A stretch of 46,996 nucleotides of DNA from a virus, in IMG/VR virus record IMGVR_UViG_3300042882_000414, positions 1-46,996 of that record; one strand, written 5' to 3'. The notes under the pieces are model-generated. The model did no database searches. It was not told the origin of the DNA and saw nothing but the letters and a program-made list of their open reading frames with translations. The position numbers and the translations under genes were made by a program. The stretch's first letter is position 1. Each line of letters begins with the position of its first letter. This document shows, in pieces, positions 14,556 through 21,973 of this stretch.

Positions 14556-14679
14556 CTCGATTCCTCTCTGTCTGATTCAATAACCCCAACAACAACGCCA
14601 CCGGCATCAGCGCCACAATCGCCAACAGTGTCAGCATGACGAGCGCGGTGGATAGCATGTGGGTGAGGATGGGTTTCAT
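14545..14679 (-). CDS. Small membrane protein, 44 aa
   Basis: A 44-aa frame whose ATG overlaps the stop of the methyltransferase-locus frame as ATGA. It has one long hydrophobic helix (STALVMLTLLAIVALMPVAL, about 10-29) and a charged C-terminus (NQTERNRDAG). It overlaps the next gene by 11 bases. Coupling and the clear membrane span support it. Function unknown. Confidence 0.58.
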   Translation of the reverse strand: MKPILTHMLSTALVMLTLLAIVALMPVALLLGLLNQTERNRDAG

Positions 14680-15989
14680 CTCAGCGTTTCCCATGCTGTT
14701 GCAACCACTCTTGGAACTTGCCCATTACCAAGGGCCTTAAGTCGGTCCACCCGATCCTTTTTTTCCTCGGTTACACGAGGGATGCCATCTTCCCACCTAC
14801 CATCCGCCCAACACGCCGGGCCGTGGTATGCCAAAAGTCGTGACAATGCTTGCATAGGGTTTGAATGTTCTCCGGGACATTGTTCGTTGGGTTTTGGTCT
14901 ATGTGATGCGCTTGCAGTTTTCTGTCGTATCCGCACGCCTCGCATCTCTTTTTCAAATGTTTTCGCGCACGCCATGAATATCCGTGCTTCGTAAGGTCTG
15001 TTCTCGTGTTCGCACAACTCAGAGAGCAGAACCGCCGTCTCTGGAAGACTGAATAATCTTCCAGTCGCGTCCCAAATCTCTTGCGTGACATTTCCTTCCC
15101 GCAACACTCGCAAAACTTGTTCTCTTCCTGTTTCTTCATCACGACAGAACCCCATAAACCAAAAGCACATTTTAAAACGGCTAATGGGGTTAACCGCTGT
15201 CCACGAATCCGGCCAGCCCATGAGTTTTTCAACCCACGTCGGATTCAGGCGCATCGGCGGGGTCTTCTGGCCACGCTGGTAGGCTTCCCGTTCCACCGTG
15301 TAATCCAGCCGGTCGTCCGTGTCGGCCCGGTTGTGATTTGGACTCCAGCGTTTGTGCTGAGTCGCTGTTGCTGTCGGCCACATCACCTGAGCCTCTAGTC
15401 CTCTGTTTGAGCTGATCCCGTTTGGACGCATGTGACGTACTGATCCGGTCGATGTCTGGTATAGATTCCCGCCTGTGATCGGCTTCGCATCTTGAGCGCA
15501 TGGAGTAACCCACAATCCACATCCTGTCCCGCTTGTGAGGTGCGCCGGTTTCTGCCGCTGATATGCAGCCCCATTCCGCATCGAACCCCAGCGAGGCCAA
15601 ATCTCCAAGGACGGTTCCAAGTCCTCGAATAGCGAGCATTGGGCTGTTTTCCACAAGGACGTAGCGAGGTCGTACTTCGCCAATAATCCGGGCCATTTCT
15701 GACCAGAGTCCTGACCGTTCACCGCTGATGCCTGCGCCTCTTCCGGCGGCGCTGATGTCCTGACACGGGAATCCGCCAGTGACAATATCCACGCATCCAG
15801 CCCAAGGTCGCCCGTCGAATGTGGTGATGTTGTCCCAGATAGGGAACGGCTCAAGGCATCCGTCATCCTGGCGCTGCATGAGTACCCTGCGACAGTAGTC
15901 GTTGATTTCGACGGCACAGACCGTTCTCCAGCCGTTGAGGATGCCTCCAAGGATTCCGCCGCCAGCTCCTGAGAAGAGTGCAAGTTCAT
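14676..15989 (-). CDS. Overlapping-frame protein carrying methyltransferase C-terminal motifs
   Basis: A 437-aa frame, +1 relative to the methyltransferase catalytic frame, which it overlaps for about 760 bases. Its ATG is four bases after the GTG of that gene. It contains SWKTAQ-like and IWPRWGSMRNG stretches, then LNPTWVEKLMGWPDSW (a motif of many phage cytosine methyltransferases). At the end comes RLKALGNGQVPRVVATAW, which is methyltransferase motif X. So the part of the enzyme missing from the catalytic frame lies here. It may be a separate subunit, the product of a +1 shift, or in its first part only an antique overprint. The HNH gene lies inside it in the third frame. Confidence 0.6.
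   Translation of the reverse strand: MNLHSSQELAAESLEASSTAGERSVPSKSTTTVAGYSCSARMTDALSRSLSGTTSPHSTGDLGLDAWILSLADSRVRTSAPPEEAQASAVNGQDSGQKWPGLLAKYDLATSLWKTAQCSLFEDLEPSLEIWPRWGSMRNGAAYQRQKPAHLTSGTGCGLWVTPCAQDAKPITGGNLYQTSTGSVRHMRPNGISSNRGLEAQVMWPTATATQHKRWSPNHNRADTDDRLDYTVEREAYQRGQKTPPMRLNPTWVEKLMGWPDSWTAVNPISRFKMCFWFMGFCRDEETGREQVLRVLREGNVTQEIWDATGRLFSLPETAVLLSELCEHENRPYEARIFMACAKTFEKEMRGVRIRQKTASASHRPKPNEQCPGEHSNPMQALSRLLAYHGPACWADGRWEDGIPRVTEEKKDRVDRLKALGNGQVPRVVATAWETLR
14771..15139 (-). CDS. HNH endonuclease embedded in methyltransferase locus
   Basis: A protein of 122 aa with two zinc pairs (CECCGKEM; FCSLSCA), then CEACGYDRKLQAHHIDQ and a closing LCKHCHDFWH: a complete HNH nuclease core with AHHID and the final His. 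The frame is open from a TTG at 15232, but the ATG at 15139, just before KKQEENKF, is the likely start. It lies within the methyltransferase C-terminal frame in another frame. It looks like a free-standing homing-type HNH gene that entered this locus. Confidence 0.82.
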   Translation of the reverse strand: MKKQEENKFCECCGKEMSRKRFGTRLEDYSVFQRRRFCSLSCANTRTDLTKHGYSWRARKHLKKRCEACGYDRKLQAHHIDQNPTNNVPENIQTLCKHCHDFWHTTARRVGRMVGGKMASLV

Positions 15990-15993
15990 TCAC
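15229..15993 (-). CDS. DNA cytosine methyltransferase, catalytic part (motifs I-VIII)
   Basis: A protein of 254 aa. SAM-binding motif I is LFSGAGGG (6-13), the catalytic Pro-Cys is GGFPCQDIS with Cys77, motif VI is ENS (115-117) and motif VIII is KRDRMWIVG. It should transfer a methyl group from SAM to C5 of cytosine in a specific site, perhaps protecting phage DNA from host restriction. It starts with GTG at 15993, overlapping the VRR-NUC stop as GTGA. It ends (ESDVG stop) without motifs IX and X, which appear in the overlapping +1 frame downstream, so on its own it is incomplete. Confidence 0.88.
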   Translation of the reverse strand: MNELALFSGAGGGILGGILNGWRTVCAVEINDYCRRVLMQRQDDGCLEPFPIWDNITTFDGRPWAGCVDIVTGGFPCQDISAAGRGAGISGERSGLWSEMARIIGEVRPRYVLVENSPMLAIRGLGTVLGDLASLGFDAEWGCISAAETGAPHKRDRMWIVGYSMRSRCEADHRRESIPDIDRISTSHASKRDQLKQRTRGSGDVADSNSDSAQTLESKSQPGRHGRPAGLHGGTGSLPAWPEDPADAPESDVG

Positions 15994-16277
15994 GCCGCCT
16001 CCCCAGCAATCCGCAACACGTCATCCACTGTTGCCACGATATGCACAACGCCGCGCCACTTACCGATGAACCGCTCTTGGTCATCAGTCAGCTTTCTTGC
16101 GCTGGGTGGCTTGTTGCCGTCTTTCACTTCCACAAGCGCCGTGTGCCCGTTCTTGGCCACCAGCAAATCTGGCACTCCCTTGCCGATGCTGTGCAGATGC
16201 GTGACAGAGAACCCGCACTTTCTAAACGCGCTGACGATCTCTTCCTGGTTGGCATCCACTCTGGCTTTTCGGGGCAT
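15990..16277 (-). CDS. VRR-NUC domain nuclease
   Basis: A protein of 95 aa: an entire VRR-NUC domain with the PD-(D/E)xK signature in KGVPDLLVAKNG and TALVEVKDG. Phage versions of this size are thought to act on branched or flap DNA, much like Holliday-junction resolvases. It ends with KLTDDQERFIGKW and a hydrophobic strand. It lies between the SSB-like protein and the methyltransferase, so it probably serves replication or recombination intermediates. Start at 16277, two bases after the preceding stop. Confidence 0.85.
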   Translation of the reverse strand: MPRKARVDANQEEIVSAFRKCGFSVTHLHSIGKGVPDLLVAKNGHTALVEVKDGNKPPSARKLTDDQERFIGKWRGVVHIVATVDDVLRIAGEAA

Positions 16278-18100: not shown

Positions 18101-18712
18101 CTATGCCGCCCTCGACTTCGCCAGCCATGATTGAACGGCTCGAAACTCTCCTGGTGTTAGGGCGGTGAGTAGTTCGCAGACGGCAGAGATACGCGAGTCT
18201 GCCTTGAGAGCCACCGTGATGGCGTCTAGGGCTGATTCAGGCGTGCGGATAGGTGGTGGTGACGGTTTGCGGAATCCGGCCTCAATTGCCGCAGCATTGG
18301 CCGTCATATCTCCACTGATAACCTTTTCGTAGAGGTCCGGCCTATCCCGCTTTAGCCGGCGTTTCCAATGGTCTGCTGTTCCCTTCTTTGTAATGGTTGT
18401 ATTGCAACCTTTTTCTGAAGGACGCCCAACACTCCCAAGCTCCCCTCGATTCTCCTCCAGCGCCCGGACGCACTCGGCATCCTTGCGGCAGAAGTAAACG
18501 AGGTCATCGTATGGAGTTTCCAAACCCCACCATAGCTTGTACTCAACAAGTTCACGAAATGACACAAATGACGATCCGTCCTGCTTAGTGTGACTAAGCC
18601 AGCACTGATCCTCGATCATGTTCTTGATAACCACTGGCAACGTCCCGAATAGGGACTGGTCGCCATTGATAAGGATGCGTTGGGCTTCCTTAACGGGATC
18701 AGGCTGCTTCAT
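18101..18712 (-). CDS. Phage protein of unknown function, 203 aa
   Basis: A protein of 203 aa. The central part (FVSFRELVEYKLWWGLETPY, DDLVYFCRKDAECVRALEEN) and the basic stretch (TADHWKRRLKRDRPDLYEKV, then ANAAAIEAGFRK) are familiar from prophage proteins beside replication genes. Their function is unknown. The basic C-terminal region with a possible helix-turn-helix suggests DNA binding. The start overlaps the helicase gene by 14 bases, and its stop is next to the O-like start. Confidence 0.7.
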   Translation of the reverse strand: MKQPDPVKEAQRILINGDQSLFGTLPVVIKNMIEDQCWLSHTKQDGSSFVSFRELVEYKLWWGLETPYDDLVYFCRKDAECVRALEENRGELGSVGRPSEKGCNTTITKKGTADHWKRRLKRDRPDLYEKVISGDMTANAAAIEAGFRKPSPPPIRTPESALDAITVALKADSRISAVCELLTALTPGEFRAVQSWLAKSRAA

Positions 18713-20585
18713 GGATATCCACCTGCTTCAGGATTGATTCCAGCAAGCCAATGGCCGCATCAATCTTGGCGATGTCGTGGTTATCAAACAGGTCGTCCAC
18801 GCTGTTTACGCCGATTGCCGCAAATACCCGAGAATGCACCAATTTGAAATCAGGCTTGTCGGAATTCATTTTTATAGCCACGCGGCGCGCCAGGGTGTTG
18901 TAGGTTTTGCGCTTCTGCATTTTCTGGACATGCAGCGGCATACCCGCGCCCGAGTCCGGTTCTGGTTGTACGCCGGCCTTTCGCAAGATATGCGCAATAG
19001 CGGCAACGGATACGTTTGATAACTGCCGATCGCCACGCTTGAAGACTTCGGCAAAGTTGATTTCCAGTGCGGCAAACTGTTCGCCCAATGACGAAACGCC
19101 GCCGCCATCTTCATGGGTTGAGCCGATGGCCGTGAAATTAGACGATGCCTGCTGTTCGCCGCGCTCTCCTGGTTTGCGCTCCTTCTTCAGCTTCATCCCG
19201 GCATCAGCTTCTTCCGAGATCCGATTGGCAAACTCAACCAAGCGCGGGAACTTGGCCATGTAGACGGTGGCATCCTCTGAGGCAGAGGGATCTTCGACGC
19301 GAACAACTCGCCCAACAACCTGGCGAAACAACAACTCAGTGCCGGGGTACGATGCCAGCACCAACACCCGCAACCGCTTAATATCGACGCCTTCAGAAAT
19401 CTTGCGGACAGCCACGATCCAACGGTCCTGACTCTTACGGAAGCGTTCAATTTTGGCGTTTGCGTCGGGATCGTCATGCTTTACGATGACTGGATCGGTT
19501 CCGGTGATTTCCCGCAATGATTTGGCAACTTGTTCAAGGTGCCTGTCGTCATCGTCAGAAGTTCCAGGGCGGCAAATGACCAAGCCACCCGCATTCACAT
19601 CGGCTATGCGATATTCATCAAGCTTTTCATCGGCCTTGGCCAAAACAGTATTCAGCCACTCAGCATCGCGCCTAAATATGACGCTTGAAACCTTTGCAAC
19701 CTGCTCCTCTTCAGCAGCAGAAATCATGACGCTCTGCTCTTGCTCATCAAGGATGTATTCCGCAACGCCATCATCGTGGATAAACAACACGCGACGGCAG
19801 ACGTCCTCGGCTACTGCCTGCTTGTAGGCATAGGCAAAATCAGCAACAGCTTTTCCGCCGTCGTAACGAACAAAAGAGATTTGTCGGCCATCACCACGAA
19901 ACGGGGTGCCAGTCATGCCGAGAATCTTGGTGGCTATACGCCCGCATGACTCAGCAGCCGATCCCCAGGTATTCTGTTCGGTTGCGTGGTGTATTTCGTC
20001 AAAGATGAAAAACAACCGCAGGCCATTTCTTGCCCACGTTTCAAACGTGGTCGTCATGTTTGGCAGTTGGGCATAGGTGATGACAGCGCCAGAGAATTGT
20101 TTAGGTGCTGCCCTGCCCTCTTTCAATACAGTCGTGATCTCGACGCCGGCCTTGTGAAAGTCGCCAAGAAATCCAGCCGACGCATCGCCCTTCAATGCCG
20201 TTGTAGGAACCACGCACACGACAAAATCCACCATCTCGTTGTCCAGAAGATGTTGGGCGCACAGACCTGAATAAATTGTTTTGCCTGCTCCTGGCGTTGC
20301 TTCCAATAGAAAACAAAGGCCACGCGATTGCGTGAATCTGTCAATCGCTTCAACCTGCCAGCCTCTAGGCGTGATAAGTCCCATTGAATTACCTCGATGA
20401 AGTTCAACATGGCAACGGCGACACAACGCCACTGCATTGGTGAGAGACGTTAGGCCGCCATCGGCATAACGCTTGACGTGATGCGCCTCCCAGTCATCTA
20501 GGAGATCGCCTCGACATTTGGCGCACCTTCCATCTGCCACCAGATAAAGGTGCTTTCGATCTTGTTTTGAAAAGCAGCGATTCAT
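18699..20585 (-). CDS. HNH nuclease fused to SF2 helicase
   Basis: A protein of 628 aa. Residues about 5-65 are an HNH nuclease: GRCAKC, WEAHHVK and CRRCHVELHRG. Then comes a DEAD/DEAH-type superfamily 2 helicase: Walker A EATPGAGKT (95-103), DEIHH (196-200), GMTGTPFR (motif III) and QVVGRVVR (motif VI). The C-terminal 150 residues are helical and unassigned. I chose the ATG at 20585 because it overlaps the preceding stop as ATGA. It may remodel and cut DNA during replication, or act against competing DNA. The domain fusion is seen directly; its role is not. Confidence 0.88.
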   Translation of the reverse strand: MNRCFSKQDRKHLYLVADGRCAKCRGDLLDDWEAHHVKRYADGGLTSLTNAVALCRRCHVELHRGNSMGLITPRGWQVEAIDRFTQSRGLCFLLEATPGAGKTIYSGLCAQHLLDNEMVDFVVCVVPTTALKGDASAGFLGDFHKAGVEITTVLKEGRAAPKQFSGAVITYAQLPNMTTTFETWARNGLRLFFIFDEIHHATEQNTWGSAAESCGRIATKILGMTGTPFRGDGRQISFVRYDGGKAVADFAYAYKQAVAEDVCRRVLFIHDDGVAEYILDEQEQSVMISAAEEEQVAKVSSVIFRRDAEWLNTVLAKADEKLDEYRIADVNAGGLVICRPGTSDDDDRHLEQVAKSLREITGTDPVIVKHDDPDANAKIERFRKSQDRWIVAVRKISEGVDIKRLRVLVLASYPGTELLFRQVVGRVVRVEDPSASEDATVYMAKFPRLVEFANRISEEADAGMKLKKERKPGERGEQQASSNFTAIGSTHEDGGGVSSLGEQFAALEINFAEVFKRGDRQLSNVSVAAIAHILRKAGVQPEPDSGAGMPLHVQKMQKRKTYNTLARRVAIKMNSDKPDFKLVHSRVFAAIGVNSVDDLFDNHDIAKIDAAIGLLESILKQVDIHEAA

Positions 20586-20836
20586 GCCCACGAACCTGTT
20601 CTGATCCGATGCGGGCTGTTATGCGGCCCACTCTCAATCCCCACCTGAAATCGCCTCGGCAGCGCGTCGCAAATCATCTCGACGGCCATGCGTTCCGATG
20701 ACTTGTGCAAGTCCAGGCGCTGGCAAATGTCGTTTACCAGCATCCCGGCACGGCGCAGGCTCACGACTTGCGCCCGTAGTTGCACGTCAATCGGCATCGG
20801 GCCGCGAAATCCACCGTGCTTGCGCCCTTTCCGCAT
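20582..20836 (-). CDS. Small basic helix-turn-helix protein, 84 aa
   Basis: A basic protein of 84 aa (RKGRKHGGFRG at the start) with an HTH-like segment (VVSLRRAGMLVNDICQRLDL). It overlaps the helicase gene as ATGA. It could bind DNA as a regulator or replication accessory. No closer family recognised; the C-terminal 25 residues have low complexity and may not be conserved. Confidence 0.6.
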   Translation of the reverse strand: MRKGRKHGGFRGPMPIDVQLRAQVVSLRRAGMLVNDICQRLDLHKSSERMAVEMICDALPRRFQVGIESGPHNSPHRIRTGSWA

Positions 20837-20839
20837 CGC

Positions 20840-21073
20840 CTAGTTCTTCACCAGACGCATCGGTTGCGCGGGTGGGTTGCCCTCAATGAAGTCGCACTTG
20901 TCATTCATGCCGCCGACTTGGCGGATGTAATCGACTTCCACCTTCGCGCTGGCGACCAGGGTTTGCGCCAGGTTGTTGATGGCTTGCGCCTGGTGAATCT
21001 CGATTTCGCCTGACTTCAGCATCTCGATGGCTTCAAACAGGTGGTTGCGCAAATCAGGCAACTTGTTCTTCAT
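20840..21073 (-). CDS. Conserved phage protein, 77 aa
   Basis: A helical protein of 77 aa starting LPDLRNHLFEAIEMLKSGEI, with NNLAQTLVASAKVEVDYIRQVGG. This pattern (LRNHLFE...AKVEVD) is common in small proteins encoded in early regions of prophages of Gram-negative bacteria, function unknown. It overlaps the HNH gene upstream by 20 bases and lies three bases before the next gene. Confidence 0.78.
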   Translation of the reverse strand: MKNKLPDLRNHLFEAIEMLKSGEIEIHQAQAINNLAQTLVASAKVEVDYIRQVGGMNDKCDFIEGNPPAQPMRLVKN

Positions 21074-21848
21074 GGGTGTCCGCCCTCTTCTTGTTGTTGA
21101 TAATTCGATTCAGCACGCCGCGCAGTTGGATGACGGCATTGAGTTCTGGCGGCAGACGGTGGCGCGTGTTACGCAGCATCAGTTCGGCACGGGTGACGAG
21201 TAGCAGGTTGTCCAGGGTGATGTTTTGCTTGTTGCCATCGATAAAGATGACGGCATGACCGGGCGGCAATGGCCCGTTGACGGACTCCCACAGGATCAGG
21301 TGGACAGCGCGGTAGTTCTTCACGCCTTGCAGGTCGGTAATTTTGCGTTCCAGGTAGCCGTCCTTGCTGATGCGTTCAAAACCAAGCGGCTTCCAGTTTT
21401 GTGGAATCTGGCCTTTCTTGAATTGCGTCAATTCGCAGCCTTCACCACACCAGCCCTTCTTGCCCTTGTTCCACGGTGTCTGCGCCGAGTGAAAGCGATG
21501 CGCCTTGCCTTTTTCCGACAGGTTAAGATTTGTGCGGGCCTGGACGCGGGCCTTGTATTCAGGGGACTTGTGCAGGTTCAGCAGGAAGGCGTGGTTGTAG
21601 ATTGAGTCGATGGACCGGCCAAAATGTGCAGCCAGTGCAGGCGTGTCCATGTCTGGATAAAGCCGGATGAACTCGGCGGATTCTGCGTCCGTCCACCAGC
21701 GTCCCGTCTTGATGTCCAGCTTCTTCGCCCGGCCACGAATACCCATGATGGAACGGCCCATCAGCACGGCCAGGTCACTCGTCGGCATCTGCCCGTATTC
21801 ACGGCGCAGCAGGTCGTCTTCTTCGGGTGTCCAAAAGCGGTGTCTCAT
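21054..21848 (-). CDS. HNH endonuclease with Myb/SANT-like DNA-binding repeats
   Basis: A protein of 264 aa. The N-terminal part has two SANT-like helix sets (FWTPEEDDLLRREYGQMP; WWTDAESAEFIRLYPDMD) with GRS motifs that would read DNA. A Lys-rich linker with NKGKKG follows, then an HNH_3 nuclease core (YRAVHLILWESVNGPLPPGH, FIDGNKQNITLDNLLLVT). This is a typical free-standing homing-type endonuclease of phages. The ATG at 21848 overlaps the small Cys protein stop as ATGA. Confidence 0.88.
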   Translation of the reverse strand: MRHRFWTPEEDDLLRREYGQMPTSDLAVLMGRSIMGIRGRAKKLDIKTGRWWTDAESAEFIRLYPDMDTPALAAHFGRSIDSIYNHAFLLNLHKSPEYKARVQARTNLNLSEKGKAHRFHSAQTPWNKGKKGWCGEGCELTQFKKGQIPQNWKPLGFERISKDGYLERKITDLQGVKNYRAVHLILWESVNGPLPPGHAVIFIDGNKQNITLDNLLLVTRAELMLRNTRHRLPPELNAVIQLRGVLNRIINNKKRADTHEEQVA

Positions 21849-21973
21849 GCCGCCTTTCCCGTCTCGGCCCAATACTCGAAGCGATAGCACTGAATCGGAC
21901 AGGCCGCGCAGCGTTCCCGCCGAAAGCAGGTTTCGCATGGGGATGGTGTTTCTTGTTGGGTGTCTTCCTTCAC
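21845..21973 (-). CDS. Small cysteine-rich protein, 42 aa
   Basis: A 42-aa frame starting with GTG at 21973, with GAGGTGA five bases upstream and coupled to the HNH gene by ATGA. Five cysteines (CETCFRRERCAACPIQC) suggest a metal-binding knuckle. Similar tiny CxxC proteins are frequent in phage early operons. Function unknown. Confidence 0.6.
   Translation of the reverse strand: MKEDTQQETPSPCETCFRRERCAACPIQCYRFEYWAETGKAA

Follow-up and report, generated by a model that had tools for sequence, protein, structure and literature searches.

The split 5mC methyltransferase M.AquI carries motifs I–VIII in its large chain and motifs IX and X in its small chain, and the two-polypeptide 5mC methyltransferase M.EcoHK31I has motifs I–VIII and X in one chain and motif IX in the other (PMC3404938). 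In actinophages, the ShiLan domain, published in 2025, is an out-of-frame HNH found in a DNA methylase (PMC11855218; PMC9957025). With ShiLan, an out-of-frame HNH gene in an open phage methylase is already a known principle; what is new at the locus described here is the two-subunit setting, the transfer of motif X between chains and a rule that holds across a whole family. Our search of literature available without subscription found no paper on overlapping methyltransferase frames of this kind in phages or on a transfer of motif X.

The locus lies in a stretch of viral DNA of 46,996 nucleotides (IMG/VR record IMGVR_UViG_3300042882_000414), hereafter the window, in which three reading frames overlap on the minus strand. 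Our analysis indicates that the locus is real and that it is largely explained by the insertion of a hidden HNH gene into an older, overlapping and probably two-chain methyltransferase.

Layout of the three reading frames

Frame A (alpha; 15229..15993, minus strand) encodes a 254 amino acid 5mC methyltransferase catalytic chain with motifs I–VIII. It begins with GTG, matches the Pfam model DNA_methylase (PF00145; E=2e-29, residues 5-182) and shows the signatures GAGGG, GGFPCQDIS, ENS and KRDR; the presence of the catalytic motifs I–VIII, including PCQ, identifies it as the catalytic part of a C5-cytosine DNA methyltransferase. In the window the frame stops at a TGA directly 3' of ESDVG and is without motif X. 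The initial annotation had read frame A as cytosine methyltransferase motifs I–VIII followed by a stop, which the Pfam match bears out, and had placed all three frames exactly, including their offsets.

Frame B (beta; 14676..15989, minus strand) is an overlapping gene of 437 codons in the +1 frame relative to A, with an ATG start 4 nt past that of A. It encodes, in order, a variable target recognition (TRD)-like part, an IX-like element (LNPxWVExLMGWP), a spacer that overlaps the HNH gene, and motif X. Residues 69-308 match phrog_1008, and the C-terminus matches the motif-X segments of phrog_363 and phrog_32758, families in which motif X is found in the same chain as A-type sequence. PHROG 1008, labelled 'DNA methyltransferase', matches the overlapping frame B instead of the catalytic frame A; labels of this kind can thus refer to an overprinted gene. 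No Pfam model matched frame B, and its IX-like and TRD-like parts match PHROG families only; both assignments rest on resemblance and position. The naming of LNPTWVEKLMGWPDSW (15201..15248, minus strand) as motif IX likewise rests on resemblance and position; no Pfam profile finds it. AlphaFold models of B were poor (mean pLDDT 43-48), a model of B without the insert was uninformative, and a B profile gave no meaningful match to PDB sequences.

Frame C (14771..15139, minus strand) encodes a 122 amino acid HNH endonuclease in the +1 frame relative to its host frame. It scored 21.6 bits with the Pfam model (cut-off 21.4) and matched the PHROG HNH family (E=4e-13), and it contains zinc-ribbon cysteines and an HH...N...C..CH core, of which the Cys pairs, HH, N and C..CH are invariant in 20 sequences.

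A Shine-Dalgarno-like GGGGAGG, recognized from the sequence (15998..16004, minus strand), lies 4 nt ahead of the A GTG and 8 nt ahead of the B ATG, a position from which one site may serve both. As context, the stop of an upstream VRR-NUC gene (15990..16277, minus strand) overlaps the A/B start (GTGAATG). The same phage encodes a 630 amino acid protein with an N-terminal HNH and a ResIII/DEAD helicase, a restriction-like fusion (18699-20591, minus strand), and a second HNH gene of another family, a free-standing HNH_3 endonuclease of 294 amino acids (21054-21938, minus strand).

The HNH insertion, its nested relatives and the fate of motif X

Comparison with HNH-free phages gave the borders of the insertion: window positions 15210-14754 are absent from four relatives (L005-L008) that are 96% identical on both sides. 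The HNH-carrying insertion (14754..15210, minus strand) thus consists of about 457 bases replacing 3 at the empty site, and its presence is disjunct between close relatives, with L001-L004 occupied and L005-L008 empty. These clean empty sites support the earlier proposal that an HNH gene invaded the methyltransferase locus. The further proposal that this event split the enzyme was not supported, as the A/B overlap is present in many HNH-free phages and the split is therefore older than the insertion. Next to the insertion, the TRD-like part (window 15380-15211) is 78-79% identical to the empty-site relatives, with 96-98% identity in both flanks, which suggests exchange or fast divergence of this putative recognition part.

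The net gain of 454 bases (3 x 151 + 1) is 1 mod 3, and for this reason motif X, RVDRLKALGNGQVP (14712..14753, minus strand), continues from frame B in the window and not from frame A, in which HNH-free relatives read it. A remnant of the old B C-terminus, GWTDLRPLVMGKFQEWLQQHGKR (14681..14752, minus strand), is found in the HNH frame beyond the HNH stop. An IX-like coding segment (EKLMGWPDSWT) is supplied anew by the 5' part of the insertion, and the 3' part of the IX-like segment of the window appears to have come with the insertion, replacing the native one. Many relatives still show the original IX-like segment on the 3' side of the HNH gene, where it lies in the HNH frame (e.g., EWLMGWPLGWTDLNPLETDKF in L099).

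Profile and single-sequence searches identified HNH relatives at about 80 viral and 11 bacterial-contig loci, nearly all of them immediately ahead of motif X in 5mC methyltransferase genes that belong to several subfamilies, and always in the +1 frame relative to the frame that continues. Across 58 non-redundant nested copies the host frame contains 0 stops vs 254 expected, and the other frame 212 vs 185 expected. Unlike the nested copies, free-standing phage HNH genes, which stand alone, have normal numbers of stops in their other frames (L129, 13 vs 14.3 expected; L141, 5 vs 6.0); ORF189 of Vibrio phage nt-1, a free-standing HNH, belongs to the same HNH/zinc-ribbon family by tblastn. Motif X lies downstream in the host frame at 85 of 92 loci. 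At 63 loci motif IV, searched with a pattern that includes SCPCQ variants, is in the same frame as the host, so that A reads through the insertion, and at about 20 window-type loci B reads through and receives motif X. On an HNH tree built from few alignment columns, the B-host arrangement requires 4 changes. Many HNH copies are preceded by a Shine-Dalgarno-like site at 5-8 nt (e.g., aaggaggaagtgaATG in L176), the match at the HNH start of the window being weak (4/6). A distant HNH relative occurs in Staphylococcus phage CUB-EPI_14 (L128:2501-2830), in the +1 frame of a 601 amino acid methyltransferase of a different type; there the host frame is open and the HNH, not annotated as such, lies just before motif IX.

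The B frame is also open across the HNH gene (0 stops vs about 4.8 expected by synonymous-codon permutation in L092; p<0.001, 1000 shuffles). Four-fold sites inside the HNH gene are identical at a frequency of 0.327-0.361 vs 0.294-0.300 expected, close to the terminase control given below, and we rejected a conserved B protein through this region on that basis. Since amino-acid constraint is only weak there, the host-frame read-through stretch looks like a tolerated spacer that is kept open. Both frames had been described as open and protein-like over 14771-15139; the openness is confirmed, and only C is protein-like under normal amino-acid constraint. AlphaFold predicts mostly confident helices for B residues 271-359 (pLDDT mostly 82-91), for which a comparison with PDB folds gave no significant match, and a search with the B-frame sequence of the insert found its three closest relatives and no more.

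Without motif X in A, part of the function may also have been lost. In one rival explanation the insertion broke the enzyme, and A without motif X and B with its 140-residue spacer would be decaying remnants that persist until they are lost; window-type A chains do lack motif X, and orphan methyltransferases of phages can be dispensed with and have a patchy distribution (PMC9957025). We consider this unlikely, given that the arrangement recurs in no fewer than 17 loci, many of which are divergent, and that none of the 58 nested copies has a host-frame stop. In 17 window-type loci motif X is 82% identical and free of stops in the B frame, whereas the adjoining freed frame relaxes: the old B tail is 56% identical, vs 61% in HNH-free loci, with a third-position divergence of 0.39 vs 0.32. 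The effect is modest, and this retention of motif X, be it in A or in B, is the best indirect indication that the two chains work together.

Group I introns often carry HNH genes, and deletion of the insertion recreates the empty-site arrangement, so that splicing out 454 bp from a self-splicing intron would restore both B and an A chain with motif X. This explanation is very improbable. An Rfam scan for a group I intron core gave no match at gathering thresholds or at E<=1; introns need not avoid stops in the exon frame, yet all 58 non-redundant copies do; and the unspliced frame needs the IX-like coding sequence that the insertion brings. Likewise, no intein model was among the Pfam and NCBIfam matches of B or C.

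An out-of-frame HNH in an uninterrupted frame, the lack of intron or intein features and a disjunct presence are thus all found at this locus, as for ShiLan, whose HNH gene is out of frame within its phage DNA methylase host, with a host frame free of stops, no intron or intein signature and a patchy distribution. The ShiLan host-frame product is a predicted small helical bundle, similar to the helices of B 271-359. The likeness of the two HNH families is one of arrangement. The ShiLan HNH has 195 amino acids, a GTG start 18 bp into the insertion, an offset of +2 and no ribosome-binding site found, and it sits in a single-chain methylase. In contrast, members of the window family have about 122 amino acids, are always +1 to the host, often have a Shine-Dalgarno-like site and lie just before motif X; the window has an overlapping A/B pair as host, in which motif X changes chain.

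The overlapping pair in HNH-free relatives and selection on both frames

The HNH-free loci (L005-L008 and L010) show the pair without the insertion. In L008, A extends through ESDVGRLVDGMARRVDRLKALGNGQVPRVVATAWETLR and thus holds motif X itself, and in the HNH-free relatives B is a second full-length ORF over the same DNA, with 316 codons and ending in LNPTWVDWLMGWPGGWTDLRPLVMGKFQEWLQQHGKR. Among 79 A loci examined, none has an IX-like motif in the A frame; it is located in B and precedes motif X in A by 14 codons in every case where both were found. One exception is L059, a rearranged locus: here the third frame holds the IX-like motif, motif X falls in the B frame, and there is no HNH match. 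The usual distribution, with motif X in A and the IX-like motif in B, would correspond to the motif partition of M.EcoHK31I. The small gene of M.EcoHK31I is nested within the large one in another frame. The predicted TRD of M.EcoHK31I is in the large chain (PMC3404938), whereas the TRD-like part of the window locus is read in B.

The A/B pair is found in phages of Acinetobacter, Salmonella, Mycobacterium, Microcystis and Pseudomonas and in E. coli prophages, with one of the two frames annotated. Matches to B fall in the +1 frame of annotated methyltransferases, and gene callers sometimes pick B instead, as in Pseudomonas phage phPA-G, where B carries the annotation and A has none. In Mycobacterium phage SG4, B is not open over its first part. 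One copy of the pair, in a prophage of E. coli PCP07014 (L280), has an internal stop in both frames and is a pseudogene in RefSeq.

Frames A and B are both under selection. We permuted the synonymous codons of 25 non-redundant A genes with the amino acids of A held fixed: the B frame, open in all of these 25 divergent families, contains 0-2 stops (essentially the terminal one) vs 3.7-9.4 expected, and the third frame of the same genes contains 10-34, about as expected. At conserved A positions, 0.557 of four-fold third bases are identical vs 0.289 expected, with values of 0.520 in codons 2-50 and 0.823 near motifs IX/X; the control, the terminase gene TerL, gave 0.326 vs 0.276 expected. Selection on B is therefore present upstream of position 15300, in line with the initial suggestion that B may be an overprint conserved right from its N-terminus. 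Past motif VIII, conservation is poor in the A frame (11-24%) and higher in B (13-30%), and around LNPxWVEWLMG the values are 82% for B and 70% for A; as B is better conserved than A there, the main message switches from A to B past motif VIII. In addition, the B start codon is kept in L023, L060, L062 and L075, where the position of the usual A start is TTA.

These observations make it highly unlikely that B is untranslated and is open and conserved as a side effect of the A sequence. The first 160 codons of A are strongly conserved, and identity in the +2 frame is raised too, as such a side effect would have it; but the permutation, which holds A fixed, predicts several more B stops than are seen, four-fold sites are constrained far beyond those of TerL, the B start persists in loci with TTA in place of the A start, and conservation past motif VIII is higher in B than in A.

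A sequencing or assembly frameshift, for which we found no support although in principle it could detach motif X from A, is refuted by independent contigs, since L001-L004, from other metagenomes, show the same three-frame structure as the window, L003 is 100% identical to it over C and over the last 296 residues of B, so that the three frames are not a base-call error, and A and B are fused into one continuous frame in none of the homologues examined.

A proposed two-chain enzyme with a hidden HNH gene

Taken with the frames, their conservation, the insertion, the stop avoidance and the retention of motif X in the B frame, as read from the sequences, the evidence makes it probable that the locus encodes a two-chain 5mC methyltransferase in overlapping frames, into which an HNH gene was later inserted with a move of motif X to B. 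Two subunits translated from adjacent starts, one of the options of the initial annotation, is the best-fitting model; frameshifting, another option, is not needed.

In the proposed model, A (alpha) would provide cofactor binding and catalysis through motifs I–VIII, and B (beta) would provide target recognition and the IX-like element. With starts 4 nt apart, the two chains could have one ribosome-binding site in common, and we infer that both are translated and form one active enzyme. A mobile HNH homing endonuclease gene would have inserted at VGRVADG (A) / NPTWVEWLMG (B), just before motif X, bringing its own IX-like coding copy and leaving the surrounding frame free of stops. After the insertion, A would end past motif VIII and B would consist of the TRD, the IX-like element, the spacer and motif X, with ribosomes reading the host frame through the HNH region as a spacer. 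The HNH protein itself would be made from the third frame by internal initiation, and it would cleave empty sites and copy the element into them.

The resulting partition would equal that of M.AquI, whose chains are not described as overlapping frames in PMC3404938 and which has no HNH spacer. It differs from that of M.EcoHK31I, in which motif X is in the large chain and not, as in the window after the HNH insertion, in the chain corresponding to B.

On a broader scale, we lean toward the view that a whole family of phage 5mC methyltransferases is two-chain and fully overlapping, that it houses a dedicated 'frame-transparent' HNH lineage, and that the window represents a subtype in which motif X has moved to B. 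If this is true, the HNH lineage would persist with neither intron nor intein, through a coding sequence that evolved to stay open in the host frame, and the window subtype would have handed motif X from the catalytic to the recognition chain, using all three forward frames of a 1.3-kb stretch.

Many phage 'DNA cytosine methyltransferase' annotations are indicated to cover only one of two overlapping genes, and the annotated frame cloned alone may therefore yield an enzyme without activity. Because motif X changes chains in nature, the two-subunit model can be put to a direct test. With no host-frame stop in 58 nested copies where 254 are expected, what was in 2025 an oddity of a few actinophages becomes a general rule, and it suggests that a selfish endonuclease gene has a third way of persisting inside a gene without destroying it.
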